DNA of 37,185 bases from Rhodocyclaceae bacterium (GTDB lineage: Bacteria; Pseudomonadota; Gammaproteobacteria; Burkholderiales; Rhodocyclaceae). The DNA lies in NCBI GenBank assembly GCA_019455325.1, contig JACFMQ010000022.1, positions 1 to 37,185 of the forward strand, read 5' to 3'. Position 1 is the stretch's first letter. Each line of letters starts with the position of its first letter. This document shows, piece by piece, positions 11,587-26,924 of this stretch. The position numbers and the translations under genes were made by a program. The notes under the pieces were generated by a model. That model was not told the DNA's origin. It saw nothing but the letters and a program-made list of their open reading frames with translations, and searched no databases.

Positions 11587-11627
11587 GCTTCCGGCGGATT
11601 TTCGTCGTGTTTCCGGCCCCTTACCAT
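11587..11627 (+). promoter_or_regulatory. Shared promoter element, copy 1 (nrtA operon)
   Basis: Starts with GCTTCCGGCGGATTTT and reaches TACCAT (11622-11627) exactly 35 bases after the element start. Read as a promoter, TACCAT is the -10 and the TTTTCG tract the -35, with a 17-bp spacer. The nrtA start codon is about 60 bases downstream. Three other leaders in the window share this geometry. Confidence 0.6.
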
Positions 11628-11689
11628 GGCGCTTGCAACGCATCTTGCGCCAGGGTTCACAGGCTTTCCCACAAGGAGGGGCAGATTTC

Positions 11690-13099
11690 ATGAAACGGAA
11701 TGCTATGCAGAAAAAATGGTCATCGCACGCCCTGCGGCTCGCGCGCGGAGCGGTGAGTTCCGCCCTGATTGCCGCCTTCGCCATCGGCGCGCCGGCGCTG
11801 GCCGCCAAGGAGAAAGTCGAGAAACCCGACCTCAAGTTCGGCTTCATCAAGCTCACCGACATGGTGCCGCTGGCCATCGCCTACGAAAAAGGCTACTTCG
11901 AGGACGAGGGGCTGTTCGTCACCCTGGAGGCGCAGGCCAACTGGAAGGTGCTGCTCGACCGCGTCATTTCCGGCGAACTCGACGGCGCGCACATGCTGGC
12001 CGGCCAGCCGATCGCCTCGACCATCGGCTACGGCACGAAGGCGCACGTCATCACCGCCTTCAGCATGGATCTGAACGGCAACGCCACCACCGTTTCCAAC
12101 GCGGTCATGGCGGCGCTGAACAAGAAGCTGCCGAAGCAGGCCGACGGCAAGCCGGTGCACCCGATCAAGGCCGAATATCTCAAGGCGGTGATCGACGATT
12201 ACAAGAAGGCCGGCAAGACCTTCAAGATGGGCATGGTCTTCCCGGTGTCCACACACAATTACGAGCTGCGCTACTGGCTTGCCTCGGGCGGCATCCACCC
12301 CGGCTACTACGCGCCGCTGAAAGGCGACACGGGCGGCCAGATCAACGCCGACGTGCTGATCTCGGTGACGCCGCCGCCGCAGATGCCGAGCACCATGGAG
12401 TCGGGCACCATCGACGGCTACAGCGTCGGCGAGCCGTGGAACCAGCAGGCGGTGTTCAAGGGCATCGGCGCCCCGATCATCACCGACTACGAGATCGAGA
12501 AGAACAACCCCGAGAAGGTGTTCGGGGTCAGCAAGGACTGGGCGGACAAGAACCCGGTCACGCACAAGGCGGTGGTCAAGGCGCTGATCCGCGCCGGCTA
12601 CTGGCTGGACGCCGAGAACAACAAGAACCGCCAGGAGGCGGCGAGGATCATTTCCAAATCCCACTATGTCGGCGCCGACTACAAGGTCATCGCCAACAGC
12701 ATGACCGGCACCTTCGAGTACGAGAAGGGCGACGTGCGCCAGGTGCCGGATTTCAACGTCTTCTTCCGCTATCACGCAACCTATCCCTACTACTCGGATG
12801 CCGTCTGGTATCTCACGCAGATGCGCCGCTGGGGCCAGATTCCCGAGTACAAGCCGGATGCCTGGTACATGGAGATGGCGAAACAGGTCTACCGCCCCGA
12901 CATCTACGCCAAGGCCGCCAAGGAATTGATCGCCGAGGGAAAGATGAAGGCTTCCGACTTCCCCGACTTCGACAAGGAGACCGGCTTCAAGCCGCCCAAG
13001 AAGGAGTTCATCGACGGCGTGGTGTACGACGGCACGAAGCCCAATGCCTACATCGACAGCATGAAGATCGGTCTCAAGGGCAAGGAAACCGTCAAGTAA
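11690..13099 (+). CDS. nrtA: Nitrate/nitrite ABC transporter substrate-binding protein
   Basis: A 469-residue NrtA-type periplasmic binding protein. A Sec signal peptide occupies residues 1-38, with cleavage likely after GAPALA. The mature part has the NrtA hallmarks: [76 protein letters not shown] and GEPWNQQAV, then [16 protein letters not shown]. These residues build the oxyanion pocket in cyanobacterial NrtA, so nitrate or nitrite is the expected ligand. The ATG at 11690 has an excellent AAGGAGG upstream. It is first in the operon with nrtB and nrtCD, and the shared promoter element lies about 60 bases before it. Confidence 0.92.
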
Positions 13100-13117
13100 A
13101 CCCGATCGAACCCTGGC

Positions 13118-13153
13118 TGCCGGCGGGACTGCGCGACCGTGCCGCCGCCGGCA
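13118..13153 (+). repeat. Intercistronic hairpin nrtA-nrtB
   Basis: TGCCGGCGG (13118-13126) pairs perfectly with CCGCCGGCA (13145-13153) in the 91-bp gap after nrtA. There is no T tract, so it is more likely a 3' stabiliser for the abundant binding-protein message than a terminator. Confidence 0.45.
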
Positions 13154-13190
13154 ATGCGGATCGTATCGCTGAACAGAGAGAACCATTGAC

Positions 13191-14210
13191 ATGCTGAACC
13201 ATGCGGTAAACATCCTGAACAAGACCGGGCTGACCTGGTTCGTTCCCTTCGTGCGGCTGTCGGCAGGCGAGGACCCGCTGCAGCAGATCAAGGACATCCT
13301 GCGGCAGATCGGCATTCCGGTCGTGGCCTTCTGCCTGTTCCTCGTCATGTGGCACGTTCTCGCGCAGGGCGTGCAGACCAGCCTCGGCACCCTTCCCGGG
13401 CCGATCGACGTATACGTCGAAGCGAAGGGGCTGGTCGAAGAGCACCACAACGAACGGGAAAAGGCGGCCCGCTTCTACGAGCGCCAGCAGGAACGCGTCG
13501 CCCAGGCCCTGGCCGAAAACCCGCAGGCCGACGTCACGATCCGCAAGTGGACGGGCAAGCCGACCTTCTTCGACCAGATCGTCACCAGCCTCTACACGGT
13601 ATTCACGGGCTTCTGGCTGGCGACCTTCATCGCCGTTCCGGTGGGCATCCTGTGCGGTCTTTCGCCGACGATCCAGCTTGCGCTGAATCCGCTGATCCAG
13701 GTTTACCGCCCGGTCTCCCCGCTGGCCTGGCTGCCGATCGTGACGCTGATCGTCAGCGCGGTTTACACCACCTCCGACGGCGCGTGGTTCGAGAAATCCT
13801 TCCTCACCTCGGCGATCACCGTCACGCTCTGCTCGCTGTGGCCGACCCTGATCAATACGGCCCTCGGCGTGTCGACGATCGACAAGGATCTGATCAACGT
13901 CTCCAAGGTGCTGCGCCTGCCGTGGTACACCAAGGTGATGAAGATCGTTCTGCCGTCGTCGCTGGAGCTGATCTTCACCGGCCTCCGGCTGTCGCTCGGG
14001 GTGGGCTGGATGGTGCTGATCGCGGCGGAAATGCTGGCGCAGAACCCCGGACTCGGCAAGTTCGTCTGGGACGAATTCCAGAACGGCAGCAGCCATTCGC
14101 TCGGCCGCATCATGGTCGCGGTCTACACCATCGGCTTCGTCGGCTTCCTGCTCGACCGGATCATGTACATGCTGCAACAACTGGTCAGCTTCGGCAAACA
14201 GTCTCACTGA
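13191..14210 (+). CDS. nrtB: Nitrate ABC transporter permease
   Basis: A 339-residue NitT/TauT-type inner-membrane permease. After a hydrophobic N-terminal segment (about 42-60) comes a charged helical stretch (GLVEEHHNEREKAARFYERQ), then the binding-protein-dependent transport domain with GFWLATFIAVPVGILCG, SPLAWLPIVTLIV and the ATPase-contact loop SKVLRLPWYTKVMKIVLPSSLELIFTGLRLSLGVGW. It forms the channel for the substrate delivered by the nrtA product and is driven by the tandem ATPase encoded 15 bp downstream. Starts at the ATG at 13191 behind an AGAGAGAA site. Confidence 0.9.
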   Translation: MLNHAVNILNKTGLTWFVPFVRLSAGEDPLQQIKDILRQIGIPVVAFCLFLVMWHVLAQGVQTSLGTLPGPIDVYVEAKGLVEEHHNEREKAARFYERQQERVAQALAENPQADVTIRKWTGKPTFFDQIVTSLYTVFTGFWLATFIAVPVGILCGLSPTIQLALNPLIQVYRPVSPLAWLPIVTLIVSAVYTTSDGAWFEKSFLTSAITVTLCSLWPTLINTALGVSTIDKDLINVSKVLRLPWYTKVMKIVLPSSLELIFTGLRLSLGVGWMVLIAAEMLAQNPGLGKFVWDEFQNGSSHSLGRIMVAVYTIGFVGFLLDRIMYMLQQLVSFGKQSH

Positions 14211-14225
14211 GCGAGGGGAGCCCAC

Positions 14226-15944
14226 ATGTCTGCCGTGCTGAAAGCTGTTGAACCATCGACGTCGACCGCCGCGCCGATCCTCGAACTGAAGCATCTGTGC
14301 AAGTCCTACGGCACGGGTCCGAGTGCCACCTCCGTGCTGAAGAACATCAATCTTCGGATCAGGGAGGGCGAGTTCGTCGCCATCGTCGGTTTCTCCGGCA
14401 GCGGCAAGACGACGCTCATTTCGCTGATCGCCGGGCTGATCGGCGCCGACAGCGGCACGGTGCTCCTCGATGGCAAGCCGGTCAAGGAACCGGGCGCGGA
14501 GCGGGGCGTCGTCTTCCAGAGCTATTCGCTGATGCCCTGGATGACGGTTCGCCAGAACGTCGCCCTGGCCGTGGATCAGGTGTTCAAGGAGGCGCCCAAG
14601 GCGGAACGCGACGCGCGCGTGGAAAAGTATGTGGCCATGGTGAACCTCACCCCGGCCATCGACCAGTTCCCCTCCGAACTTTCCGGCGGCATGCGCCAGC
14701 GCGTCGCGGTGGCGCGCGCCCTGGCCGCCAGCCCCGAGATACTGCTCCTCGACGAACCGCTCTCGGCGCTCGATGCGCTCACCCGCGCCAACCTTCAGGA
14801 CGAAATCGTCCGCATCTGGAGCCAGGAGAAGAAGACCGTCATCCTCATCACCAACGATGTGGACGAAGGCATCATCATGGCCGACCGCATCATTCCGCTG
14901 AACCCGGGTCCCGGCGCGACCTTCGGGCCGGAATTCGAGGTGACGCTGCCGCGGCCCCGCGACCGTTCCGGAATGAACCACTCGCCCGAGTTCAGGCGCA
15001 TCCGCAAGGAAGTCACCGCCTACCTGATGAAGGTCGGCCTGGAGCAGACGGTCGACGATGGCGGCGCCGGCACCACGCTGCCGGTCGTGCTGCCCAATAC
15101 CAGCCGCGAGCACCAGGCGCAGCTCAAGGGCGCCGCGGCACAGGAAGCGTCGGCGGAAAACGTCGATGCCTACGTCGAGCTATCCAGGGTTTCGAAGATC
15201 TATCCGAGCAAGAAAGGCCCGGTGACCGTCGTCGAAGAATTCGATCTGAACATCCGCAAGGGCGAATTCGTCACGCTCATCGGCCACTCCGGCTGCGGCA
15301 AGTCGACGGTGCTGTCGATGGTCGCCGGGCTGACCGAGATCAGCGAGGGCTACATCAAGCTCGACGAGCGCAAGGTCGTCACCGCCGGGCCGGATCGCGG
15401 CATCGTCTTCCAGGCGCCGAGCCTCGTGCCGTGGCTGACGGCGTACGAGAACGTCACCCTCGGCGTCGACCAGGTGTATCCCCATGCCACCCGCCAGGAG
15501 CGCGAGGACATCTGCACCCATTACCTGGAGCGCGTCGGCCTGGCGGAGGCGGCCGACAAGAAAGCCGCGGAGCTGTCGAACGGGATGAAGCAGCGCGTCG
15601 GCATCGCGCGCGCTTTCGCGCTTTCCCCGAAGCTGCTGTTGCTCGACGAACCCTTCGGCATGCTCGATTCGCTGACCCGCTGGGATCTGCAGGAAGTCCT
15701 CATGGAAGTGTGGACCCGCGACCAGCTCACGGCCATGATGGTCACGCACGATGTGGACGAAGCCATCCTGCTCGCCGACCGCGTGGTGATGATGACCAAC
15801 GGCCCGCGCGCCAGGGTCGGCCGGATTCTGAAGATCGACCTGCCGCGGCCCCGTTCGCGCAAGATGCTGCTCGAACACCCCGACTACTATCCGCTGCGCG
15901 AGGAACTGCTGAGCTTTCTCTCTTCCGGCGGTCATCCGGCGTGA
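14226..15944 (+). CDS. nrtCD: Nitrate ABC transporter, tandem ATP-binding protein
   Basis: A 572-residue protein with two complete ABC ATPase domains in one chain. Domain 1 has Walker [10 protein letters not shown] (about 55-63), signature LSGGMRQRV, and Walker B LLLDEP. Domain 2 has Walker [10 protein letters not shown] (about 353-361), signature LSNGMKQRV, and Walker B LLLDEP. In cyanobacteria these are two proteins (NrtC, with a regulatory binding-protein-like tail, and NrtD); here the tail is absent and the ATPases are fused. The H-loop His is kept in domain 2 (H508, THDVDEA) but is Asn in domain 1 (N210, TNDVDEG), so the two sites are probably unequal. It powers nitrate uptake through NrtB. 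The symbol is descriptive. Confidence 0.88.
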
Positions 15945-15954
15945 GCGTCTGCCG

Positions 15955-16049: not shown

Positions 16050-17315
16050 ATGGCGGTAACGCAGCTTCAGAAGCAGATTTCGGTTCTGGTCATGAGCACG
16101 ACGGCTTTCACCGTGTGCTTCATGGTCTGGATGATCTTTGCGGTGATCGGCATCCCGATCAAGGAGGCGCTGGGTCTCAACGAAACCCAGTTCGGCCTGC
16201 TCGCCGCCATGCCGGTGCTCACCGGCTCGCTGGTCCGCCTGCCGCTCGGCATGATGACCGACCGCTTCGGCGGCCGCCCGGTGTTCTTCGCCATCATGAT
16301 GACCACCGTCGTCCCGCTCTACCTGATCGGCCATGCCACCGCCTACTGGCAGTTTCTCGTCGCCGGCCTCTTCGTCGGCGTCGCCGGCGGCTCGTTCTCG
16401 GTCGGCATCGCCTACTGCGCCCGCTGGTTCGAGCGCAGGAACCAGGGCTTCGCCATGGGCATCTTCGGCGCCGGCAACGCCGGCGCCGCCGTGACCAAGA
16501 TGATCGCGCCGAGCATCGTCGTCGCCTACGGCTGGACGATGGTGCCGACGGTCTACGCAGTGATGATGCTGGTCACCGCCCTGGCTTTCTATGCCCTGAC
16601 CTACAGCGACCCGGCGCACAAGGCCGAGACGCATGTCACGGTGCGCGCGCAGTTGCGGCTGCTGAAGGACCCGACGGTCTGGAAAATCTGCCAGTACTAT
16701 TCGATCGTCTTCGGCGGCTACGTCGGCCTGTCGCTGTGGATGACGAATTACTACGTCCAGGAATACGGCTTCGACCTGAAGAGCGCGGCCTTCCTCGCCG
16801 CCTGCTTCTCCCTGCCCGGCGGCGTGCTGCGCGCCATGGGTGGGTGGATGTCGGACAGATGGGGCGCGCACCGGGTCACCTGGTGGGTGCTCTGGGTCAG
16901 TTGGATCTGTCTGTTCATCCTTTCCTATCCGCAGACCGAAGTCACCATCAAGACCGTGAGCGGCCCGGCGACCTATCAGATCGGGCTGAACGTTTACGTC
17001 TTCGCCTCCCTGATGTTCGTCATCGGCATCGCCTGCGCCATCGGCAAGGCGTCGGTCTTCAAGTACATCTCCGACGACTACCCGCAGAGCATCGGCGTCG
17101 TTTCCGGCATCGTCGGCCTGGCCGGCGCCCTGGGCGGCTTCCTGCTGCCGATCCTCTTCGGCGCGCTGGTCGATCTGACGGGCATCCGCTCGTCCTGCTT
17201 CATGCTGCTGTACGGCGTGGTGTGGGTGGCGCTGATCTGGATGTACTGGACCGAGGTGCGCGGCATGGATGTGATGTCCCGGCACCGGGCCGCAGGCGTG
17301 GATACGCTCGAATAA
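16050..17315 (+). CDS. narK1: NarK1-type nitrate transporter (MFS)
   Basis: A 421-residue major facilitator with 12 predicted membrane segments and the nitrate/nitrite porter motifs. The first half has GSLVRLPLGMMTDRFGGRPV, with the arginine expected to bind nitrate, and GVAGGSFSVGIAYCARWFERRNQGFAMGIFGAGNAGAA; the second half has LPGGVLRAMGGWMSDRWGAHRV. Length and sequence style match type I NarK, considered a proton-coupled nitrate importer. It follows nrtCD by 105 bp and probably belongs to that operon. The ATG at 16050 has only a weak ribosome binding site. A perfect 36-bp palindrome stands just after the stop codon. Confidence 0.88.
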   Translation: MAVTQLQKQISVLVMSTTAFTVCFMVWMIFAVIGIPIKEALGLNETQFGLLAAMPVLTGSLVRLPLGMMTDRFGGRPVFFAIMMTTVVPLYLIGHATAYWQFLVAGLFVGVAGGSFSVGIAYCARWFERRNQGFAMGIFGAGNAGAAVTKMIAPSIVVAYGWTMVPTVYAVMMLVTALAFYALTYSDPAHKAETHVTVRAQLRLLKDPTVWKICQYYSIVFGGYVGLSLWMTNYYVQEYGFDLKSAAFLAACFSLPGGVLRAMGGWMSDRWGAHRVTWWVLWVSWICLFILSYPQTEVTIKTVSGPATYQIGLNVYVFASLMFVIGIACAIGKASVFKYISDDYPQSIGVVSGIVGLAGALGGFLLPILFGALVDLTGIRSSCFMLLYGVVWVALIWMYWTEVRGMDVMSRHRAAGVDTLE

Positions 17316-17326
17316 CCCGTCCTTGC

Positions 17327-17362
17327 CGCCGATCCGGAAGGACTAGTCCTTCCGGATCGGCG
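17327..17362. promoter_or_regulatory. ACTAGT palindrome, copy 2 (36-bp perfect inverted repeat)
   Basis: Every base from 17327 to 17362 pairs with its mirror position around the centre 17344/17345. The core is AAGGACTAGTCCTT and the outer arms read CGCCGATCCGG and its complement. It begins 12 bases after the narK1 stop and has no T tract on either side. Its centre is 114.5 bp upstream of the next TACCAT hexamer. It may be both a transcript-end hairpin and a protein-binding site. Confidence 0.6.
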
Positions 17363-17423
17363 AAGCGCCTGCCGACTATCACTTTGCCTGCGCCAGCCCC
17401 CTCCGTTTGCCGCTGCCGGCCGT

Positions 17424-17464
17424 GCTTCCGGAGGATTTTCCGGGGGGTGCGCGCCTTCTACCAT
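17424..17464 (+). promoter_or_regulatory. Shared promoter element, copy 2 (narK2 operon)
   Basis: GCTTCCGGAGGATTTT begins at 17424 and TACCAT at 17459, again a 35-base offset. The presumed -35 is TTTTCC. The transcript would have a leader of about 180 bases before narK2; nothing obvious is encoded in it. Confidence 0.6.
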
Positions 17465-17646: not shown

Positions 17647-19347
17647 ATGTCAAAACTGGCAAGGTGGGAGCCCGAAGATCCGACATTCTGGAAGGAAACG
17701 GGCAGTGCGCTGGCGTGGCGCACGTGCGGCATCACGACTTTTTCATTGATCTTTTCGTTCGCGACATGGTTCGTCATGAGCGCGGTGGTGGTGCGGATGC
17801 CCAACATCGGCTTCAAGTTCACGACCATGGAGCTGTTCTGGCTGGCGGCGATTCCCGGACTCGCCTCGGGCATCCTGCGGCTGATCCATTCCTACTTCAT
17901 TCCGGTGCTCGGAACGCGGCCGGTGGTCAGCATCGCGACGATCATCAAGCTGATCCCGATGGTCTGGCTGGGCTTCGCCATCCAGGATACCTCGACGCCG
18001 TGGAGCACCTTCATGGTCATCGGCTTCCTCTGCGGCATGGGCGGGGGTGACTTCTCCTCCTACATGCCGTCTACCAGCATCTTCTTTCCGAAGCGGCTGC
18101 AGGGCGTCTCGATGGGCATTCAGGCGGGCATCGGCAACATGGGCGTCAGCCTGGTCCAGTTCGTGACGCCGTGGATCATCGGCTTCGCGGCGCTCGGCGC
18201 CATCGTCGGCGGGCCGCAGCCCTTCACGAAGGTCGACGTGCTCAAGGACATCGCGGTGACGAAGGACGCCAGCGGCATCGTCACCGACGTGGTGGCCAAG
18301 CGGCCCGATCTGGCGGCGGCCACGGTGATCACGCGCGAAGGCGACGTGATCAGGGACGTGACGATCACGGAGACGGAAACCACCAAGAACATGAAGGTGG
18401 ATCTGAAGAAGAACGACGCCGGCCTGATCACCGACGTGGTGGTCAAGAAAGTGGTGAAGAAGGACATCTGGCTGCAGAACGCCGCGTTCTGGTATGTCCC
18501 GTTCCTGATCGTGGCCTTCGTCCTCTGCGCGGTCTTCCTGCGCAGCGTCAAGGTGCCGGTGCGAGGCTTCAAGGGGCAGTTCGAGATCCTCAGCAAACTG
18601 AACCGGGCGCGGGTGCATACCTGGAACTGCACGGTCACCTACATCTGCTCGTTCGGCTCGTTCTCGGGCTATGCGGCGGCGTTCCCGATGATGATCAAGG
18701 CCATCTACGGGGGCTTCGACGGCGCGCCGGACCCGCTCGCCTACGCCTTCCTCGGCCCGCTGATCGGCGGCCTGATCCGCTTCCTCACCGGCGGCATCTT
18801 CGACAGGATCGGCGGCAGCAAGGGCATGCACTGGATGACGCTGGGCCAGATCGCCGGCTGCCTGTTCCTCGTCGTCGGCGGCTACCTGACGCCGACCAGC
18901 GTCGAGCAGTTCTCGGGCTTCCTCTGGGGCATGCTCTGGATCTTCCTGATGTCGGGCACGAACAACGCGGCGACCTTCCGCCAGTATCCGATCGTGTTCG
19001 CCTACTCGCCCGCCAAGGGCGCGCAGATGCTCGGCTGGACGGGCGCCTGGGCGGCCTTCGGTCCGTTCATCTGGACCTCGCTGATCGGCGGCTCGATCAC
19101 CAGCTTCGGCAGCGCGATCCCGTTCTTCGTCGGCATCTCGGTCTTCTATGCCTATTCGTGCTGGATCAACTGGTACTATTACACCCGCAAGGGCGCCGAG
19201 CGTTTCGACTACGGCAATGCCGGCGGCACGTGGTGGGACAAGCTGAGCGACGCCGAGAAGGAAGAGATGAAGCGGATCGACCTGCACCTCGGCCCCGAGC
19301 ATGGCGGCAAGGATTCGGGGCGGCCGGCGTACGGCGTCTCCGGCTGA
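17647..19347 (+). CDS. narK2: NarK2-type nitrate/nitrite transporter with enlarged periplasmic loop
   Basis: A 566-residue major facilitator. It begins WEPEDPTFWKETG and has the NarK2/NarU-type nitrate signature (FFPKRLQGVSMGIQAGIGNMGVS; second half GPLIGGLIRFLTGGIFDRIGG; GTNNAATFRQYPIVF). Type II NarK proteins exchange nitrate for nitrite. Between predicted TM5 and TM6, about residues 195-278, there is an unusually long hydrophilic loop. It contains two similar copies, ASGIVTDVVAK and DAGLITDVVVKK; the third NarK here has only a short loop at this place. The ATG at 17647 is preferred over an upstream TTG because AAAGGA is 9 bases before it. First gene of its operon. Confidence 0.88.
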   Translation: MSKLARWEPEDPTFWKETGSALAWRTCGITTFSLIFSFATWFVMSAVVVRMPNIGFKFTTMELFWLAAIPGLASGILRLIHSYFIPVLGTRPVVSIATIIKLIPMVWLGFAIQDTSTPWSTFMVIGFLCGMGGGDFSSYMPSTSIFFPKRLQGVSMGIQAGIGNMGVSLVQFVTPWIIGFAALGAIVGGPQPFTKVDVLKDIAVTKDASGIVTDVVAKRPDLAAATVITREGDVIRDVTITETETTKNMKVDLKKNDAGLITDVVVKKVVKKDIWLQNAAFWYVPFLIVAFVLCAVFLRSVKVPVRGFKGQFEILSKLNRARVHTWNCTVTYICSFGSFSGYAAAFPMMIKAIYGGFDGAPDPLAYAFLGPLIGGLIRFLTGGIFDRIGGSKGMHWMTLGQIAGCLFLVVGGYLTPTSVEQFSGFLWGMLWIFLMSGTNNAATFRQYPIVFAYSPAKGAQMLGWTGAWAAFGPFIWTSLIGGSITSFGSAIPFFVGISVFYAYSCWINWYYYTRKGAERFDYGNAGGTWWDKLSDAEKEEMKRIDLHLGPEHGGKDSGRPAYGVSG

Positions 19348-19432: not shown

Positions 19433-19451
19433 TGGCGGGAGAATCCCGCCA
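19433..19451 (+). repeat. Intercistronic hairpin after narK2
   Basis: TGGCGGGA and TCCCGCCA form a perfect 8-bp stem with loop GAA, followed within a few bases by CATTTTGGG. It is a weak terminator or attenuator between narK2 and the 69-residue membrane protein. A GGCGGCG/CGCCGCC pair lies just upstream. Confidence 0.4.
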
Positions 19452-19492
19452 TCGGCATTTTGGGCCTCGACGATATCGGTGGAATCCTCATC

Positions 19493-19702: not shown

Positions 19703-19722
19703 TCCGCCGGGGCCTGCCAGCG

Positions 19723-21390
19723 ATGATCGTCGACGACGCGCAACGGAACACGGCGGGAACGGCGGGCGCCGTCCGCGGCGGCGTCGACATCGCCGTCTGG
19801 AATCCGGAGGACGAAGCCTTCTGGGCGTCGCGCGGCTGGCGGATCGCCCGCCGCAACCTCTGCATCTCGACGCTGAGCCTGCTCTGCGGCTTCGCCGTCT
19901 GGGCGATGTGGGGCATCATCACCGTGCAGATGTTCAACCTCGGCTTTCCGTTCAAGGCCGAGGAGCTGTTCACGCTGGCCGCCATCTCCGGCCTCTCGGG
20001 GGCGACGCTGCGCATCTCGTCGTCGTTCCTCATCCGGCTGGCCGGCGGCCGCAACACCATCTTCCTGACGACCGCGCTGCTGATCGTGCCGGCGCTCGGC
20101 ACCGGCCTCGCGCTGCAGGACCGGAGCACGCCGCTGTGGGTGTTCCAGCTCCTGGCGCTGCTCTCCGGCATCGGCGCCGGCAACTTCGCCTCCTCGATGT
20201 CGAACATCAGCTCCTTCTTCCCCAAGCGCCTGCAGGGGACGGCGCTCGGCATCAACGCCGGCATCGGCAACTTCGGCGTCACGGCGACGCAGGTGCTGGT
20301 GCCGCTGGCGATGACCGTCGGCGTGCTCGGCGCGCTCGGCGGCGAGCCGATGCTGCTGGCCAAGGACAGCGGCTGGATCTTCGGCCGGATCGAGGCCGGC
20401 ACGCCGACCTTCATCCAGAACGCCGGCTTCGTCTGGGTGGTCGTGCTCGTGCCGCTGACCGCCGCCGCCTGGTTCGGCATGAACAACCTGCTCGGCGCCA
20501 CGCCCGGCCTCGCCTCGACCGGCGGGGCCTTCGCCAGGATCGTCTACCTCCTCGCGCTGACGCTGGCCATCACCGTCCTCGGGCTCTACCTGCATCTGCC
20601 CGCGCCGACCGGCCTCGGCCTGCTCGACATGTGGGTGACGCTGCCGCTGATCATGATCGCCACGCTGCTCGTCATCCGCGTTGCCGTCGCCGGCGAGATG
20701 CGGGCCAACATCGCCGGCCAGTTCGCCATCTTCGGCAATCGGCACACCTGGTCGATGAGCATGCTGTACGTGCTCACCTTCGGCTCCTTCATCGGCTTCT
20801 CGATGGCGCTGCCGCTGTCGATCGCGGTGATCTTCGGCGTCAGCCACGTCGTCGACCCGGCGACCGGGCTGCTCTCGCACACCCTGAAGAACCCGAACGC
20901 GCCGTCGGCGCTGACCTACGCCTGGCTCGGCCCGTTCGTCGGCGCCCTCGGGCGGCCGATCGGCGGCTGGCTGGCCGACCGGATCGGCGGCTCGGTGGTC
21001 ACGCAGGCCGTCTCGGCGACGATGCTCGTCGCCTCCGTCGGCGCCGGCTACCTGATGATGCAGGCCTACCAGTCGGCGACGCCCGAGCAGCATTTCATCC
21101 CGTTCCTGGCGGTGTTCATCGTCCTCTTCGCGGCCACCGGCATCGGCAACGGTTCGACCTTCCGCACCATCGGCGTCGTCTTCGACCGCGCCCAGGCCGG
21201 CCCGGCCCTCGGCTGGGCCTCGGCGATGGCGGCCTACGGCGCGTTCATCGCGCCGGTGGTCATCGGCCGCCAGATCAAGGCCGGCACGCCGGAGGTCGCG
21301 ATGTACGGCTTCGCCGGCTTCTACGCGCTGTGCCTGCTGCTCAACTGGTGGTTCTACCTGCGGCGCGGCGCGGAGATCAGGAATCCCTGA
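19723..21390 (+). CDS. narK3: Third NarK-type nitrate/nitrite transporter
   Basis: A 555-residue major facilitator of the same subfamily as the narK2 product. It starts with VWNPEDEAFWASRGWRIARR and carries FFPKRLQGTALGINAGIGNFGVT in the first half and GPFVGALGRPIGGWLADRIGGSV and GIGNGSTFRTIGVVF in the second. The TM5-TM6 loop is short. Two extra membrane segments appear in the central linker (IVYLLALTLAITVLGLYL, LPLIMIATLLVIRV). The ATG at 19723 follows CCAGCG without a good ribosome binding site, so translation may be coupled to the small gene before it. The stop TGA shares a base with the next ATG. The number in the symbol is only for order. Confidence 0.85.
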   Translation: MIVDDAQRNTAGTAGAVRGGVDIAVWNPEDEAFWASRGWRIARRNLCISTLSLLCGFAVWAMWGIITVQMFNLGFPFKAEELFTLAAISGLSGATLRISSSFLIRLAGGRNTIFLTTALLIVPALGTGLALQDRSTPLWVFQLLALLSGIGAGNFASSMSNISSFFPKRLQGTALGINAGIGNFGVTATQVLVPLAMTVGVLGALGGEPMLLAKDSGWIFGRIEAGTPTFIQNAGFVWVVVLVPLTAAAWFGMNNLLGATPGLASTGGAFARIVYLLALTLAITVLGLYLHLPAPTGLGLLDMWVTLPLIMIATLLVIRVAVAGEMRANIAGQFAIFGNRHTWSMSMLYVLTFGSFIGFSMALPLSIAVIFGVSHVVDPATGLLSHTLKNPNAPSALTYAWLGPFVGALGRPIGGWLADRIGGSVVTQAVSATMLVASVGAGYLMMQAYQSATPEQHFIPFLAVFIVLFAATGIGNGSTFRTIGVVFDRAQAGPALGWASAMAAYGAFIAPVVIGRQIKAGTPEVAMYGFAGFYALCLLLNWWFYLRRGAEIRNP

Positions 21391-22442
21391 TGGCCTCCCG
21401 GCCGCAGGCGGAGCCGGACGGGGCCTGGGCGGGCTGGCGCCCGTTCCGGATCGTCGCCGCCGCGCCCGAGGCGAGGGACGTCGTTTCGTTCCGGCTGGTG
21501 CCGCAGGACGGCGCCGCCCTGCCGCCGTTCCGGGGCGGGCAGCACGTGGCGCTGCGCGCCGGCCCGGCAGGGGCGAGGCGGGTGCGCTGCTACTCGCTGT
21601 CGTCGCTTCCCGATGCGGGCGGCTACCGGCTGACCGTCAAGCGCGTCGGCGGCGGGGAGATGTCCGGGTTCCTGCACGCGCTGTCGCCGCCGTTCGCCGC
21701 CGCCGTGGAACTGATGGCCCCCCGCGGCGACTTTTGCATCGCGCCGGGCGCGGCGGGCGAAGCCTTTCCGGTGGTGCTGATCGCCGGCGGCATCGGCATC
21801 ACGCCGCTGCTCTCGATGCTGCATCAACTGCGGCGCGACGGCTGGCCGGCGCCGGTCGACCTGCTCTACAGCGTGCGCTCGGCAAGCGCGCATGCGTTCG
21901 CCGAAGAGATTCTCGACCTGCAAAAGGCGATGCCGCGGCTCAGCGTCTCCACTTTCTACAGCCGGCCCGAGCCGGCGGACCTGTCGTCGGCCGCCTGCGA
22001 CGTTGCCGGGCGGCTCTCGGCCGCGCATCTCGCCGGCGTCGCCGCGCCGGCGGCGCGCTTCTACGTCTGCGGCCCGGCGGCGATGATCGCCTTCGTCATG
22101 GAGGCGCTGGCCCGGCTCGGCGTCGGCGCGGAGCGGCGCTTCGCGGAAAGCTTCGGCCCGCCGTGCCGGCGGCTTTCCGGCGCGGCGCTGGCGCCGCAGC
22201 CGGTCCAGTTGGTGCGCTCGGGCAGGACGTTCTTGTGGCGGCCGGGCGGCCCTTCGCTGCTGGAACTCGCCGAGGACGCCGGGGTGAACGTCATGAGCAA
22301 CTGCCGCGTCGGCCAGTGCGACGCCTGCGCGGCGAAGCTGCTCGCCGGCGAGGTGGACTGCCCCGGCCAGGAGCAGCCTGCCGCCGACGAATGCTTCCTC
22401 TGCGTCGCGCAGCCGCTGACGCCGCTGATCATCGACCTCTAG
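21390..22442 (+). CDS. FAD/NAD(P)H oxidoreductase with C-terminal 2Fe-2S ferredoxin domain
   Basis: A 350-residue flavoprotein in three parts. The FAD domain has RCYSLSSLP (about 60-70). The NAD(P) domain has GGIGITPLLSML and YVCGPAAMI. A plant-type 2Fe-2S domain at the C terminus has NCRVGQCDACAAKL followed by a fourth Cys near FLCVAQP. The order resembles the Hcr/oxygenase-reductase class. It would pass electrons from NAD(P)H through FAD and the cluster to a partner protein in the cytoplasm. It is fused by overlapping stop/start to the third narK gene. In assimilatory systems a flavin/ferredoxin reductase supplies the nitrate reductase, so it may feed the molybdoenzyme encoded at 26996; a role with a nitric oxide or hydroxylamine enzyme is the alternative. 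Confidence 0.85.
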   Translation: MASRPQAEPDGAWAGWRPFRIVAAAPEARDVVSFRLVPQDGAALPPFRGGQHVALRAGPAGARRVRCYSLSSLPDAGGYRLTVKRVGGGEMSGFLHALSPPFAAAVELMAPRGDFCIAPGAAGEAFPVVLIAGGIGITPLLSMLHQLRRDGWPAPVDLLYSVRSASAHAFAEEILDLQKAMPRLSVSTFYSRPEPADLSSAACDVAGRLSAAHLAGVAAPAARFYVCGPAAMIAFVMEALARLGVGAERRFAESFGPPCRRLSGAALAPQPVQLVRSGRTFLWRPGGPSLLELAEDAGVNVMSNCRVGQCDACAAKLLAGEVDCPGQEQPAADECFLCVAQPLTPLIIDL

Positions 22443-22470
22443 GCCCGCGGCCGCGTCGGGTCGCCCCGAG

Positions 22471-22480
22471 GAACTAGTCC
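22471..22480. promoter_or_regulatory. ACTAGT palindrome, copy 3
   Basis: GAACTAGTCC, imperfect outside the hexamer core. It starts 28 bases after the reductase stop. Its centre is 60.5 bp upstream of the TATCAT hexamer, about half the distance seen in the other three copies. Confidence 0.45.
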
Positions 22481-22490
22481 GTCCGGCCGC

Positions 22491-22519
22491 CCGAAGCTCT
22501 GCTTCGGACGTATTTTTTT
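22491..22519 (+). terminator. Hairpin plus T tract ahead of the yeiH-like operon
   Basis: CCGAAGC and GCTTCGG form a perfect 7-bp stem with loop TCT, followed after five bases by seven T. It could terminate the narK2 transcript. Its right arm and T tract are at the same time the left half of shared promoter element copy 3, so the two readings overlap. Confidence 0.45.
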
Positions 22520-22541
22520 CGCCCCGCCCCCTGCCTATCAT
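22501..22541 (+). promoter_or_regulatory. Shared promoter element, copy 3 (yeiH-like operon)
   Basis: GCTTCGGACGTATTTTTTTC starts at 22501 and TATCAT at 22536, the same 35-base offset. The first 20 bases match copy 4 at all but two positions. The expected leader to the permease start is about 115 bases. Confidence 0.6.
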
Positions 22542-22659: not shown

Positions 22660-24414
22660 ATGATCTACACCAGAAAATCACCGGCGCTGCTCATCATCGG
22701 TCTCGTCATGCTGACGTGGGGCTGGCTGAACGCCAGCGGCAGCCTCGACGGCATGCAGGCGTGGCTGCAGCGGAGCGCCCATGCGGAGCACGTGAAGGCG
22801 CAGGCGAAGTTCGACGCCGAGCTGCGCGCGGCCGCGGCGCGGGCCGCGGCCGAGGGCGTGCCGGCGCCGGCGATGAAGATGCCGCCCTCGCGCTTCGACG
22901 AGGCCAAGGCCGGGCAGGCCCGGCTCTCCTGGATCTTCGGCGGCCTCGCCGTCGCCTGCGGCCTGCTGATCCTGCTGCGGACTCCCGGCCGGGGCCACGT
23001 CGACTACTACCTGTCGGTCGTGCCGGGCATGGCCTGGATGCTGCTGATCGCCTTCGTCGTGCGCTGGCTGCTCGACCCGGTCTTCGCCAACTGGGGCCGC
23101 GACGCGCAGGCGACGCTCGGCTTCAACTTCGCGACGATCTTCAACTTCAACTACGTGGTGCTCGGCATCCTCGCCGGCATCGTCATCGTGAACGTCTTCG
23201 GCATCCCCGCCTGGGCGGCCAACGGCGTGCGCACCGCCCGCCTCTTCCTGAAGACCGGCGTCATCCTGCTCGGCACGCTGTACAGCGCCACCGAGCTGCT
23301 GCAGCTGGGCGGCCTGTCGGTGGCGATGATCGGCGCCTTCGTGCTCGGCTCGGTGTGGATCGTGCTCGCGCTCGGGCGCCGCCTGCGCACCGACAATTCG
23401 ATGACCGCGGTGCTCTCGGCGGGCATGGGCGTGTGCGGCGTCTCGGCCACCGTCGCCGTGGCACCGGTGGTGAACGCCAAGCCGAGCGAGATCGCCTACA
23501 CCATCGGCACCATCCTGATGTGGGGCGTCGGCGGCATGTTCCTCTTTCCGACCGTCGGCCACCTCCTCGGCATGGGGCCGGTGCAGTTCGGCGCCTGGGC
23601 CGGCACCGGCATCCTCAACTCCGCGCAGGTCGCCGGCGCGGCGCTCGCCTTCGATCCGAACGGCATCGAGACGCTCAAGGTGGCGGAGATCTTCAACATC
23701 ACCCGCGTGCTCTTCCTGCCGCTGATCGCGCTCTGGCTCGCCGCCTGGTACGTGCGGCACGAGGCCGGCGCGGCCAGGGTCGACCTCGGCCACGTGCTGT
23801 TCGCCAAGTTCCCGGTGTTCGTGCTCGGCTTCCTGTTCATGTTCCTGCTTTCCTCGCTCGGCGCGTTCACGCCGTCGGGCCACTACCAGGGGAAATACTT
23901 CAGCGCCGACGAGGTGAAGCGCGAGAAGCGGCTCGACGACCGGGACGCCGCCGCCCTCGCCGGCGCCCTGTCGCAGCTCGAATCGCCGGCCGGCCGGGCG
24001 GCGCTGCAGGCCTTCCTCGCCGCCCGGTCGATCCACGTCGGCCAGCACCACGCCGAGCCGGAGGACGTGTCGACGGCCCTCTCCGGGCTGATCGCCGAGC
24101 GGCAGATGCGCACGCGCGCGCAGGACGGCCTTCTTGCCGCCGTCGCCAGGCTGCCCGGTCTCGACGCCGAGGCCAGGGCAGCGATCGAGAAGGCGGGCAA
24201 GGCGGCCTGGCACGCCTCGAAGACCATCGGCGCGTTCCGCGACTGGCTGGCCTGGCTGTTCGCCTTCGGCCTGATCGGGCTGGGCATGCAGATCACCGGC
24301 AAGGCCATGCGCCAGGCCGGCGGCGTGCCGCTCTTCATCGGCGGCGTGGTCGGCACGCTGAAGGCGATCGGTTCGCTGCTCGTCGTGCTGCTGTTCGTCA
24401 GGGAATTCGTTTGA
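22660..24414 (+). CDS. YeiH/UPF0324-family permease, enlarged
   Basis: A 584-residue membrane protein with the conserved core of the putative sulfate exporter family (UPF0324/YeiH). Recognisable segments are GVRTARLFLKTGVILLGTLYS, RTDNSMTAVLSAGMGVCGVSATVAVAPVV, GTGILNSAQVAGAAL, FNITRVLFLPLIALWL and a C-terminal GLGMQITGKAMRQAGGVPLFIGG. Family members are usually about 340 residues; this one has an extra N-terminal TM plus Ala-rich helix (residues 1-90) and an insertion of about 110 helical, charged residues before the last segments (about 410-520). The substrate is unproven; an anion is likely from the family, and the context suggests nitrite or another oxyanion. The ATG follows GAAGGGAAGAAGG. 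First gene of a six-gene operon. Confidence 0.82.
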   Translation: MIYTRKSPALLIIGLVMLTWGWLNASGSLDGMQAWLQRSAHAEHVKAQAKFDAELRAAAARAAAEGVPAPAMKMPPSRFDEAKAGQARLSWIFGGLAVACGLLILLRTPGRGHVDYYLSVVPGMAWMLLIAFVVRWLLDPVFANWGRDAQATLGFNFATIFNFNYVVLGILAGIVIVNVFGIPAWAANGVRTARLFLKTGVILLGTLYSATELLQLGGLSVAMIGAFVLGSVWIVLALGRRLRTDNSMTAVLSAGMGVCGVSATVAVAPVVNAKPSEIAYTIGTILMWGVGGMFLFPTVGHLLGMGPVQFGAWAGTGILNSAQVAGAALAFDPNGIETLKVAEIFNITRVLFLPLIALWLAAWYVRHEAGAARVDLGHVLFAKFPVFVLGFLFMFLLSSLGAFTPSGHYQGKYFSADEVKREKRLDDRDAAALAGALSQLESPAGRAALQAFLAARSIHVGQHHAEPEDVSTALSGLIAERQMRTRAQDGLLAAVARLPGLDAEARAAIEKAGKAAWHASKTIGAFRDWLAWLFAFGLIGLGMQITGKAMRQAGGVPLFIGGVVGTLKAIGSLLVVLLFVREFV

Positions 24415-24425
24415 GGAGAGAAGCC

Positions 24426-24554
24426 ATGTCCGGAGAAGAGTTCAAGCGCGGGAATCACCTGTCGATCTTCGCCAGCGATCGCGGGGAAGACATCGGCGCG
24501 CTGGTGCTCGCGCTGCTGATCGCCATCGGAGTCGTGCTGTTTGTCGGCCGCTAG
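24426..24554 (+). CDS. 42-residue single-pass membrane peptide
   Basis: Starts at the ATG at 24426 behind GAGGAGAGAAG, a strong ribosome binding site. The N-terminal half is charged (MSGEEFKRGNHLSIFASDRG) and the C-terminal half is one hydrophobic helix (IGALVLALLIAIGVVLFVGR). It lies 11 bp after the permease gene and its end overlaps the next gene. Its position suggests a small subunit or stabiliser of the permease; no family is recognised. Confidence 0.65.
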   Translation: MSGEEFKRGNHLSIFASDRGEDIGALVLALLIAIGVVLFVGR

Positions 24555-25032
24555 CCCGCGCGGCCTGGCGCCGGCGACGCTGCTGCTCTGCCACCACGGC
24601 ACGCGCGGCGCCGCCGCGGCCGCCGATCTGGCGGTGGCGATCGCGCTGCCCGGGCTGACCACCGTCGTCCATTGCCTGGTCGTGCCCGATCTCTGGGGCG
24701 GCATGCAGGGCGACGACTGGCTCAACGACGCGACGACGCGCGACGCCTTCGGCGCCTACGTCGAGAAGATGCTGGCGGAAGAGGCGCGGGCCGTATCGCG
24801 CGCGATCGAGGCGCAGTGCCACGCGCGCGGCGTCGACTACCGGGCGGCGCTGCGCTTCGGCGAGCCGGCCGCGGTGGCGCTGGCCGTCGCCGCCGAGGTC
24901 GGCGCCGATCTCTGCGTGATCGGTCCGCCGCGCCGCCGGGGCGAGGCCGGCCTGCGTTCGCGCATGCGCCTGGAGCGGCTGCTGCGGGATCTGCCATGTC
25001 CGCTGCTGGTCGCCAGCCGCCGCTCGCGCTAG
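24541..25032 (+). CDS. UspA-like universal stress protein domain
   Basis: A 163-residue alpha/beta protein with the start and end of a UspA fold: TLLLCHHGTRGAAAAADLAVAIA at the N terminus and ADLCVIGPPRRRGEAGLRSRMRLERLLRDLPCPLLVASR at the C terminus. The C-terminal segment lies where ATP-binding members have GxxGx9GS(S/T), but that motif is degenerate here. The best start is the TTG at 24541, with GGAG about 10 bases upstream; it overlaps the preceding small gene by 14 bases. It is a cytoplasmic partner of unknown task in the operon. Confidence 0.65.
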   Translation: MSAASPRGLAPATLLLCHHGTRGAAAAADLAVAIALPGLTTVVHCLVVPDLWGGMQGDDWLNDATTRDAFGAYVEKMLAEEARAVSRAIEAQCHARGVDYRAALRFGEPAAVALAVAAEVGADLCVIGPPRRRGEAGLRSRMRLERLLRDLPCPLLVASRRSR

Positions 25033-25619
25033 CCGGGCCCGGCGACACGGCGCGCGCCGAGATCGCGGTGCCGCTGGCGCCGGCCGCGCTGGCCGACTTC
25101 CTCGCCGACGTCGAGCGGCTGTTCCGGCTCAATCCGCTGCTGACGATCGAATCCTGGCGCGCGTGCGCCGGCGGTTTCCATTTCGTCGCCGACAACGAGA
25201 GCAACGGGCGGCGCATCGACGCTGCCGTCGCCGTCGAGCGCGCGGCCGACGGTTCGACGCTGCTGCTGCGCTACGCGACGGGCCTGAAGCGGGCGACGCA
25301 ACTGGCGGTGACGGCGTCCGGCGGCGGCGCGCGCCTGGTCGTCACCGAGCATTACGCCGCCGTCGCGGACCCGGCCGATCCGCGCCTGGCCGAGGTCGAC
25401 CGGAGTCTCGTGCCCTGGGTCGCCGCGCTGCACCGGCACCTGCGCGCCCGGCGGCGCTGGGGGTGGCTGCCCGGCTGGCGGTGGTGGCACGAACGCTTCC
25501 TGGCCGGCCTGGCGCCGCGCCAGCGACGGATCGTGCGCCTGCTGGTGTGGATCAGCCTGCTGGAATTCATCGCTTTTCTTGGACTGGTCCTGGTATGGAA
25601 CCTCGCCGCGCAACGCTGA
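24996..25619 (+). CDS. SRPBCC (START-like) domain protein with C-terminal membrane helix
   Basis: A 207-residue protein starting inside the end of the UspA-like gene (37-base overlap). The region EIAVPLAPAALADFLADVERLFRLNPLLTIESW and GFHFVADNESNGRRIDAAVAVERAADGSTLLLRYATG follows the strand/helix pattern of SRPBCC lipid/ligand-binding folds. The last residues (IVRLLVWISLLEFIAFLGLVLVWNLAAQR) form a membrane anchor. Ligand and role are unknown. Family assignment rests on pattern only. Confidence 0.6.
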   Translation: MSAAGRQPPLALAGPGDTARAEIAVPLAPAALADFLADVERLFRLNPLLTIESWRACAGGFHFVADNESNGRRIDAAVAVERAADGSTLLLRYATGLKRATQLAVTASGGGARLVVTEHYAAVADPADPRLAEVDRSLVPWVAALHRHLRARRRWGWLPGWRWWHERFLAGLAPRQRRIVRLLVWISLLEFIAFLGLVLVWNLAAQR

Positions 25620-25644
25620 CCTCGCCGCCATCGGAGCAAGGGCG

Positions 25645-26250
25645 ATGAGCGTCGATGCCGCGCACGCGGACGCCGGCCCGTCGCCCGGCGAACTCGCCGT
25701 CCGCGCCCTTTTCGCCGTGCTGCACGGCGCCGCCGTCGGCGAACTGCCCGCCTTCGCCTGGACGCTCGACCTGCCGCAGAGACAGTTGCTGGCCTTGATC
25801 ACCGAACACCTGCCGGAGGCGCTGACGGTCATCCCGCTGTCCGGGCAACGCTATGCCAGCCTGCGGCAGCAGGTGCCGCGGGAGTTCCACGACCTGCTCG
25901 ACCTGATGCTCGCCGCGCGCGCCCCGACGGTGCCGCTGGCGGCGGCCGAGCGGAGCGCCCGCGTCATCGCCGCCGCCTGCTTCGGCCGCCGCTATCTCTG
26001 GCGGGATCTCGGGCTGCGCGGCCGCGAGGACGTCGCCCTGCTGTTCGCCACCTATTTCCCCGCGCTCTACCGCGCGAACGCGCGCAACCAGATATGGAAG
26101 CGCTTCCTCTTCGCGGAGATCTCCGCGCGCCGCGGCAGTGCACCGCTCCACCCGCCGAACTGCGTGCGCTGCGAGGATTTCACGAACTGCTTCCCGGCGC
26201 ATCCGGACGACGCTCCGGCCGGCCTGCCGGGGGGCACCGAAAAAACATGA
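25645..26250 (+). CDS. NifQ-like protein (molybdenum handling)
   Basis: A 201-residue protein whose C-terminal half matches NifQ: ARVIAAACFGRRYLWRDLGLRGREDVALLFATYFPALYRANARNQIWKRFLFAEI, then the Cys motif C173-x2-C176-x5-C182 (NCVRCEDFTNCFP). NifQ normally has Cx4Cx2Cx5C holding a Mo-Fe-S cluster that donates molybdenum to nitrogenase cofactor assembly. Here the first cysteine is missing (Leu168). No nif genes are in the window; instead it sits two genes before a molybdopterin enzyme. A role in molybdenum supply for that enzyme is an inference. ATG at 25645 with GGAGCAAGG upstream. Confidence 0.78.
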   Translation: MSVDAAHADAGPSPGELAVRALFAVLHGAAVGELPAFAWTLDLPQRQLLALITEHLPEALTVIPLSGQRYASLRQQVPREFHDLLDLMLAARAPTVPLAAAERSARVIAAACFGRRYLWRDLGLRGREDVALLFATYFPALYRANARNQIWKRFLFAEISARRGSAPLHPPNCVRCEDFTNCFPAHPDDAPAGLPGGTEKT

Positions 26251-26268
26251 TCGTTCGAGGAGCATGCC

Positions 26269-26754
26269 ATGAACACACCGACGGAAAAGCAGGCGCTGGC
26301 CGAAGAAGCGGCCCGCCGCGCAAAGCAATACGAGCTGGACTACGGGTCCTGTCCGCAGTGCGTGCTGGCGGCGATCCAGGAGACCCTGGGCATCGTGGAC
26401 GACGCCACCATCAAGGCCGTGCACGGGCTGGCCGGCGGCGGCGCGCTGATGGGCAAGGGCGCCTGCGGCGCCCTGACCGGCGGCCTCATCGCCCTCTCGG
26501 TGAAGCAGGGCCGCGACCGCGACAAGCTCGACAAGGGGCGCTTCATGGGCAACTACCAGAAGGGCCGGGATCTCGTCGAGCGCTTCCGCGCCGAGTTCGG
26601 CGGCATCACTTGCGAGGAGCTGCAGCAGCAGTTCACCGGCAAGACCTACGACATGTGGCGCGCCGAGGAGTACCAGGCGTTCAACGAGGCCCGCGGCGAC
26701 AAGTGCGCCGAGGCGACGGCCGCCGTCACCCGCTGGGTGGTGGAGCTGCTGTAG
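26269..26754 (+). CDS. C_GCAxxG_C_C family protein
   Basis: A 161-residue protein of the C_GCAxxG_C_C family. It has an N-terminal helix, GSCPQCVLAAIQETLG with C28 and C31, the family core GGGALMGKGACGALTGGLIAL with C66, then C115 (ITCEELQ) and C146 (DKCAEATAAV). The pattern of spaced cysteines points to a metal or Fe-S/redox function, but no activity is established for the family. It ends the six-gene operon, 18 bp after the nifQ-like gene, with a good ribosome binding site (CGAGGAG). The next gene is the molybdoenzyme, which has its own promoter element. Confidence 0.8.
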   Translation: MNTPTEKQALAEEAARRAKQYELDYGSCPQCVLAAIQETLGIVDDATIKAVHGLAGGGALMGKGACGALTGGLIALSVKQGRDRDKLDKGRFMGNYQKGRDLVERFRAEFGGITCEELQQQFTGKTYDMWRAEEYQAFNEARGDKCAEATAAVTRWVVELL

Positions 26755-26796
26755 CGGTACGCCGGACGGCCTGTGGCCGGCGCGCGTAGTCCTGAA

Positions 26797-26806
26797 GAAC
26801 TAGTCC
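26797..26806. promoter_or_regulatory. ACTAGT palindrome, copy 4
   Basis: GAACTAGTCC, identical to copy 3. It lies 42 bases after the preceding stop codon. Its centre is 117.5 bp upstream of the TACCAT hexamer of element copy 4, close to the 114.5 and 116.5 bp of copies 2 and 1. Confidence 0.5.
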
Positions 26807-26883
26807 ATGCGCAGGTGCGCGGCCGCGCGCGACCCCGTCCGTCCGGCCTAGAAACTGTCATCCCTTGAGCATCCCGCAACCCT

Positions 26884-26924
26884 GCTTCAGGCGTATTTTT
26901 TTCGTCGGATCGTTTGCCTACCAT
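26884..26924 (+). promoter_or_regulatory. Shared promoter element, copy 4 (molybdoenzyme operon)
   Basis: GCTTCAGGCGTATTTTTTTC starts at 26884 and TACCAT at 26919, again 35 bases on. The leader to the catalytic subunit start is about 65-70 bases. The 245-bp gap that holds it carries no gene. Confidence 0.6.

Follow-up and report, generated by a model that had tools for sequence, protein, structure and literature searches.

The four intergenic leaders of a nitrate island in a Rhodocyclaceae bacterium are probably the promoters of a single nitrate regulon, controlled by a variant of the NarX-NarL two-component system that has its own operator. The island lies on contig JACFMQ010000022.1 of assembly GCA_019455325.1. 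The window, by which we mean the whole stretch of 37,185 nucleotides that was analysed, is contig C28 of the host genome, which was scanned over 4,462,596 bases. Each leader pairs a core promoter element with an ACTAGT palindrome further upstream, and this interpretation draws on their sequence conservation, spacing and helical phasing, on an association with the gene for a NarX-like sensor kinase, and on the scarcity of textbook NarL sites. Coordinates of all features are collected in Table 1.

The core element has GCTTCNG at positions 1-7, a T run from position 13 (four, four, seven and seven T in leaders 1 to 4) and TACCAT or TATCAT beginning at position 36 in all four leaders. An earlier annotation made without database searches, hereafter the sequence-only reading, had described this element and its fixed spacing, and all four copies lie exactly where it placed them. 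The pattern GCTTCNG-N4-ATTTT-N19-TAYCAT has four exact matches in the window and five when up to three mismatches are allowed (0.03 expected), and none of 100 shuffles reaches five. With at most one mismatch, a slightly looser pattern finds only the four leaders in the whole host genome and its backward control finds nothing. Shuffling and genome-wide scanning, which had been proposed as a check that the pattern is not common, therefore come out in its favour. Among 149 other genomes, a match with one mismatch occurs in five and a match to the backward control in four, so these outside matches look like chance. A look-alike with three mismatches at 33360-33400, before a short open reading frame (ORF) of the aldehyde dehydrogenase type, has no palindrome or ACTAGT box and was rejected as chance.

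The promoter-like layout proposed earlier, with a fixed -10 before each structural operon, holds, and leaders from other genomes keep the same -10 offset. The -35/-10 pair as originally written is not supported: a scan for sigma-70-like pairs found none where 1.3 are expected by chance. Other promoter types and regulator sites were tried on the window leaders and rejected: a sigma-54 promoter (TGGCACG-N4-TTGCA) fits with 3-5 mismatches at best, an FNR box (TTGAT-N4-ATCAA near -41.5) with 4-5, and the NarL 7-2-7 site (TACYNMT-N2-AKNRGTA) with 3, 3, 4 and 2 in leaders 1 to 4. The sequence-only reading had likewise seen no FNR boxes or NarL heptamer pairs in these leaders. In leader 4, the best 7-2-7 words (two mismatches) include one that overlaps its ACTAGT box. 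No Rfam family matches the window at the gathering threshold, leader antitermination of the ANTAR/NasR or NasT type having been considered.

The upstream ACTAGT palindromes are the stronger half of the pattern and were missed by the sequence-only reading. The word GRACTAGTYC starts at 11501, 17340, 22471 and 26797, which is 86, 84, 30 and 87 bp upstream of the respective elements. Its exact form occurs nowhere else in the 4.46-Mb genome, whereas the backward control has 42 occurrences per strand. By eye, all four boxes also have a C and a G located 5 bp outside the ten-base word. The same extended form, C-N4-GRACTAGTYC-N4-G, is seen in relatives, with the C in 32 of 38 sites and the G in 22 of 38. 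A common palindrome that is unique in the genome strengthens the earlier idea of one regulon. The accompanying claim that the layout precedes all four operons stands for the structural operons but not for the kinase-regulator pair, before which no ACTAGT was found.

The 34-bp perfect inverted repeat at 17328-17361 is centred on box 2 directly after the narK stop codon, and it folds with -18.8 kcal/mol as single-stranded DNA. Box 1 also forms a hairpin. Boxes 3 and 4 form none, which implies that the feature common to all four is a double-stranded DNA word. Leaders 1 and 2 have CCGTGCTTCCGG in common and leaders 3 and 4 have GTATTTTTTTCG; outside the box and core the four leaders align poorly, and the spacing between box and core varies.

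The same core recurs in front of narK in relatives of the host. The sample, drawn from the order to which the host belongs, comprises 109 leaders in front of narK orthologs, taken from 115 narK matches outside the host after six leaders (G206, G227, G245, G292, G368 and G342) were left out. An expectation-maximization (EM) motif search of width 42 was run on 32 ACTAGT-bearing outside leaders (35 minus three near-copies) with the window excluded. The motif found consists of cCnTcnGGCGAATGG and, again at position 36, a TAnnnT -10. The motif in full reads cC.Tc.GGCGAATGG, then cCcTAa.CT, with TA at position 36. When the background-corrected EM matrix is applied to the window, the four sites rank 1-4 of 74,288 positions with scores of 24.4, 22.8, 19.6 and 13.3, and the next best position scores 9.9. 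In a consensus set of 60 sites (70 minus ten near-copies; 56 outside sites plus those of the window), the conserved bases are C2 (56 of 60), T4 (47), G7 (59), G10 (50), A12 (58), T13 (60), T36 (57), A37 (59) and T41 (60). These positions replace the T tract, which the sequence-only reading had treated as a conserved part: TTTT occurs at positions 13-16 in just one of 66 outside core-bearing leaders, and the T run is peculiar to this island.

Both halves of the pattern are tied to the kinase. With a kinase ortholog defined by E <=1e-110, ACTAGT lies within 250 bp of narK in 33 of the 67 leaders whose genome has the kinase and in 2 of 42 whose genome lacks it (p = 5e-7), although only three candidates were scored per listed genome, so some genomes counted as kinase-less may have one. 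Both kinase-less leaders with ACTAGT belong to genome G391. The core scores above 12 in 55 of 67 leaders with the kinase and 4 of 42 without it, a result that includes 32 of the 33 leaders with kinase and ACTAGT (nearly all of them training leaders) and both leaders of G391. Among the leaders that lack ACTAGT, none of which was used in training but some of which are close kin of training leaders, the core is found in 23 of 34 with the kinase and 2 of 40 without (p = 8e-9). Stratifying by family leaves an association between core (score >10) and kinase with z = 3.4, and the leaders with both span 19 families. Where the left block is present, offset 36 of the -10 is kept by 29 of 30 leaders in the training set, by 21 of 32 held out from it that have the kinase and no ACTAGT, and by 1 of 10 with neither kinase nor box.

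The distances between box and core are helically phased. In the 66 leaders with a core score above 10, ACTAGT centres fall 24.5-26.5, 33.5-34.5, 43.5-48.5, 56.5-57.5 and 67.5 bp upstream of the core. They follow a 10.5-bp period (R = 0.84 for 38 ACTAGT words, R = 0.76 for 87 CTAG words) that persists when sites are collapsed by family and position (R = 0.81 for 21 ACTAGT and 0.68 for 54 CTAG). If the -10 starts at -12, then the boxes would be centred near -72.5, -82, -93.5, -104 and -114.5, a series close to that of CRP at classical class-I promoters. Helically spaced boxes ahead of the core, as a class-I activator would use, are therefore a feature of the relatives; in the window only the full palindrome of box 3 is on phase.

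The narK leaders that lack the core look different. They contain 7-2-7 sites (<=1 mismatch) in 20 of 43 cases versus 2 of 66 with the core, and FNR boxes in 8 of 43 versus 2 of 66. All 20 genomes with core-less 7-2-7 leaders encode a regulator above the NarL cut-off, and the 23 regulators above the cut-off in these genomes all have Lys192 and Val189; seven lower-scoring regulators have Arg and Leu at 192 and 189. In NarL, residues 188, 189 and 192 contact bases. Regulators encoded beside the kinase (28 found at 29 loci searched) carry Gln192 in 28 of 28 cases and Ile189 in 26 of 28, and the window regulator is alike, with K, I and Q at 188, 189 and 192 rather than the K188, V189 and K192 that go with the 7-2-7 site. 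Its score against the NarL equivalog NF007935 is 225 bits, below the cut-off of 250. In helix alpha-10, the kinase-linked set changes Glu to Gln and Trp to Tyr, Phe or Leu. This helix makes the NarL dimer contact, according to the portion of PMC4549865 available to us.

The window kinase has the Pfam domains of a NarX-type sensor (PilJ-type sensor, HAMP, GAF or GAF-like, HisKA_3 and HATPase) and scores below the NCBIfam equivalog cut-offs for both NarQ (269 of 553 bits) and NarX (237 of 578 bits). In the GAF domain, cysteines occupy positions 339 (23 of 29 kinase orthologs), 345 and 347 (29 of 29 each) and 374 (25 of 29) in the numbering of the window kinase, which itself has Leu, Tyr, Tyr and Ser there. 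The P-box Arg57 of 26 of 28 orthologs is Gly in the window kinase. A review, in the passages available, states that no sensing role is known for this GAF-like domain (PMC8199190). As a guess, the window kinase may have lost a redox or oxygen input, which would fit an island for uptake and assimilation. A broader scenario strikes us as rather doubtful: an order-wide NarX/NarL lineage with a changed DNA word (back-to-back CTAG boxes, not 7-2-7) might have taken the place of FNR before narK, the conserved GAF cysteines of the kinase itself sensing oxygen. Loss of the four cysteines and the P-box arginine would then free the window system from oxygen control and convert what was a respiratory switch into one that controls the uptake and assimilation of nitrate in air.

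A number of observations count against a NarL-variant regulon. The element is present in none of six congeners (65-99% complete), and at position 11 and past T13 the window core does not follow the consensus of the outside sites. A sequence-only covariance model, built with 29 of the 56 outside sites, has no window site among its 11 matches in G000 at E <=3 (150 of 3883 candidates scored), and on the window itself it finds two of the four sites, at 4.7 and 3.9 bits among 16 matches. In our reading, it fails where the EM matrix succeeds because its null model rewards GC-rich spacers. Exact ACTAGT is missing from 34 of the 67 kinase leaders, 12 of the 67 have a core score of 12 or less, and 7 of the 67 fail to beat their own shuffles at 1 in 100. 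Conversely, a core score above 10 is reached by 7 of the 42 kinase-less leaders, including two from G391, a genome that has both box and core. In the window, the full palindromes 1, 2 and 4 are centred 81.5, 79.5 and 82.5 bp upstream of the core, which puts them 3.5, 1.5 and 4.5 bp off phase. Gln192 is also found in eight regulators from 6 of 35 core-less genomes, and in a tree these eight fall among the kinase-linked set. Near-7-2-7 words (<=2 mismatches) occur in 15 of 66 core-bearing leaders versus 0 of 66 shuffled ones, and box and heptamer have much in common: TAGTYNN differs from TACYNMT mainly at the third base. Eight of those 15 leaders have the near-7-2-7 word touching a CTAG word, and 12 of 38 boxes fit the heptamer at 6 of 7 bases counted from the central TA. 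This overlap means that the box resembles two back-to-back heptamers with the third base changed, which makes it a variant word and not an unrelated one.

Among other explanations, we regard as possible, though unlikely, a division of labour between two proteins, in which a NarL-type regulator occupies ACTAGT and a second, co-inherited activator of class II occupies the -47 to -33 block. The activator touching the -35 region that the sequence-only reading suggested is a possibility for this block. The sequence of the block, C.TC.GG.GAAT, does not resemble the box, its position around -41 is one at which class-II activators bind, and no -35 hexamer is evident; the block is present in 23 of 34 leaders with the kinase and no exact ACTAGT. 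Yet it is tied to the kinase as tightly as the box is, FNR-like words do not fit it, and we know of no regulator with a site like it, which we count against a second protein. It is improbable that GCTTC and the T tract instead act as an intrinsic terminator for the operon before them, the -10 spacing then being coincidental or reflecting a second use. Leader 3 does scan as a terminator, with a 7-pair stem at 22491-22507 and then the T run (fold z = -3.5), and in leader 1 the four T follow a stem of 6 pairs (z = -1.1), but the fold of leader 2 does not surpass those of its shuffles (z = 0.9) and leader 4 is weak (z = -1.4). In addition, the scan gave 10 terminator-like sites against 8.1 expected, and the outside leaders keep the block and -10 but not the T run, with folds that are only a little more stable than those of shuffled sequences (-5.55 versus -4.62). 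A terminator consequently fails as a general explanation of the four leaders. The stem and T run of leader 3 (22491-22519), in which GCTTCGG pairs with CCGAAGC at 22491-22497, overlap core promoter 3, and double use as terminator and promoter is possible there.

Copying of one promoter within the island, which would give box and core by shared ancestry without a common regulator, is very improbable. The words shared by leader pairs 1/2 and 3/4 would suit it, but the poor alignment elsewhere and the differing spacing would not, and the same positions are conserved in narK leaders of many other families. We give scarcely any credence to the earlier picture taken alone, of a sigma-70 promoter with a T-tract -35, an upstream GCTTC box and a local regulon; the pattern is indeed confined to these four places, but the T tract is not conserved elsewhere and the unique ACTAGT palindromes are left out. 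In the least probable alternative, the palindromes have nothing to do with the promoter and serve the operons before them as terminators or RNA hairpins. An overlap with the end of the regulator gene (box 1) and a perfect inverted repeat just after a stop codon (box 2) are what such hairpins might show, yet boxes 3 and 4 are unfolded and the boxes of relatives are phased to the downstream core.

The best explanation of these sequence patterns would therefore be a NarX-NarL variant that is shared by many families of the order, has an altered operator and altered recognition and dimerisation helices, and here serves an island of the nitrate-assimilation type. We infer who binds and the steps of phosphorylation, activation and start-site choice as follows. 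The NarX-like kinase would sense nitrate and phosphorylate the adjacent NarL-type regulator, which would bind the C-N4-GRACTAGTYC-N4-G palindromes and the weaker CTAG boxes between them and the core. Bound regulator could then recruit RNA polymerase as a class-I-type activator, with a contact to the alpha subunit predicted by analogy. The core would be an activator-dependent promoter composed of C.TC.GG.G.AT (-46 to -35) and the TAnnnT -10, with no real -35 hexamer. The -47 to -33 block may be read by RNA polymerase together with the regulator, or by a second protein.

NarL belongs to the textbook response regulators, and for any NarX-NarL pair a natural first guess is the operator known from E. 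coli. If the NarL-variant interpretation is true, then many bacteria of this order use a different operator and promoter geometry, and scans for the E. coli site miss their nitrate regulons. A few helix residues would be paired with the change in DNA word, which makes the evolution of specificity directly testable, and the sites, unique in the host genome, would give a short list of its nitrate-controlled operons.

Operon borders in Table 1 follow from the positions of the leaders. ORF 19539-22442 was considered as a fusion and rejected: the NarK gene (ORF 19369-21390, start 19723) is read in a different frame from the beginning of this ORF, of which the reductase part from 21390 alone is genuine. 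When genome contigs were searched with it, four distant loci came up, none of which was used. The whole island was not found elsewhere among the genomes searched. NrtA orthologs occur in 4 of 60 other genomes and YeiH orthologs in 15 of 398, and no such island or leaders appeared in the stretches read, which for YeiH covered 11 of the 15. The YeiH-like gene and the ORF of unknown function at 24672-25619 occur together in 10 of the 11 further genomes examined, where no nitrate island of this kind surrounds them. The genes at 26996-32433, a molybdoenzyme followed by 4Fe-4S, DmsC-like and NapG-like parts and a MarR-type regulator, are an unusual mix for a NasC-like enzyme. Elsewhere in the window, ORF 6516-7655 weakly matches a cGAMP-activated phospholipase of the cyclic-oligonucleotide-based antiphage signalling system (CBASS), with 48 bits against a cut-off of 200, and positions 1-410 contain tandem repeats with 15- and 18-base steps that are like a lysine- and alanine-rich gene end, presumably of a histone H1-like gene.

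Table 1. Promoter elements, boxes and genes of the nitrate island in the window
Feature	Positions	Strand	Remarks
NarX-like nitrate sensor kinase	8896-10824	+	Candidate by NCBIfam and Pfam; P-box-like AINDAGSERMRTY
NarL-type response regulator	10821-11507	+	Proposed ACTAGT reader; NF007935 225 bits; recognition helix with Q192
Box 1	11496-11515	.	GAACTAGTTC in C-N4-GRACTAGTYC-N4-G dyad; overlaps regulator gene end
Degenerate CTAG box, leader 1	11538-11541	.	Centre 47.5 bp upstream of core, 1 bp off phase
Core promoter 1 (predicted)	11587-11627	+	-10 TACCAT 11622-11627; rank 2/74,288 by outside matrix
Operon 1, ATP-binding cassette (ABC) nitrate uptake	11690-15944	+	NrtA 11690-13099, NrtB 13191-14210, NrtCD 14226-15944
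NarK-type transporter, operon 1 end	16050-17315	+	Orthologs elsewhere often behind this promoter type
Box 2	17335-17354	.	GGACTAGTCC within 34-bp perfect inverted repeat 17328-17361
Degenerate box ACTATC, leader 2	17375-17380	.	Centre 46.5 bp upstream of core, on phase
Core promoter 2 (predicted)	17424-17464	+	-10 TACCAT 17459-17464; rank 4/74,288 by outside matrix
Operon 2	17647-22442	+	NarK-type 17647-19347, NarK-type 19723-21390, FAD/NAD/2Fe-2S reductase 21390-22442
Box 3	22466-22485	.	GAACTAGTCC; centre 25.5 bp upstream of core (predicted -72.5), on phase
Core promoter 3 (predicted)	22501-22541	+	-10 TATCAT 22536-22541; rank 1/74,288 by outside matrix
Operon 3	22660-26754	+	YeiH-like 22660-24414, unknown ORF 24672-25619, NifQ 25579-26250, C-GCAxxG-C-C protein 26269-26754
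Box 4	26792-26811	.	GAACTAGTCC
Degenerate CTAG box, leader 4	26848-26851	.	Centre 34.5 bp upstream of core, 1.5 bp off phase
Core promoter 4 (predicted)	26884-26924	+	-10 TACCAT 26919-26924; rank 3/74,288 by outside matrix
Operon 4 first gene, molybdopterin oxidoreductase	26996-29200	+	NasC/formate dehydrogenase-like

The window system resembles E. coli NarX-NarL in having a PilJ-type nitrate sensor kinase beside a NarL-type regulator, with narK and nitrate genes downstream. The E. coli NarL consensus is TACYNMT-N2-AKNRGTA, and each half of the box, TAGTYNN, is this heptamer with its third base changed. The halves here abut around a central ACT-AGT, unlike the 7-2-7 heptamer arrangement described for E. 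coli in the available part of PMC4549865. The regulator also differs in having Q192 instead of K192 and in falling below the NarL cut-off, and the promoters in that FNR boxes and 7-2-7 sites are scarce. In Burkholderia pseudomallei, a narL mutant is unable to use nitrate, as reported in the accessible text of PMC8191878, and the passages available from that paper and PMC8742066 contain no NarL operator sequence for its NarX-NarL system. No ACTAGT-type NarL operator was reported in the literature searched by title and start of abstract, a scope that leaves subscription papers and regulon databases outside.

Other NarL-family regulators also read ACT...AGT dyads, as we propose for the window regulator. 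DosR/DevR recognizes the box GGGACT-TT-AGTCCC and VraR recognizes ACTnnAGT, and both VraR and DevR are sequence matches of the window regulator among solved structures. These differ from the system described here in having two bases between the half sites, where the window boxes have none, and in their signals and hosts. A parallel for the proposed mechanism is the E. coli ogt promoter, whose activation by NarL is independent of FNR. There, NarL can activate from -77.5, -67.5 and -44.5 through the alpha C-terminal domain, as described in the available sections of PMC7419079. The leaders of the nitrate island are like ogt in having predicted upstream NarL-type sites at helically spaced positions, and the alpha contact known from ogt is proposed here as well. 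They are unlike it in that their operator is different, their sites are positioned further upstream, and they have a conserved -47 to -33 block.

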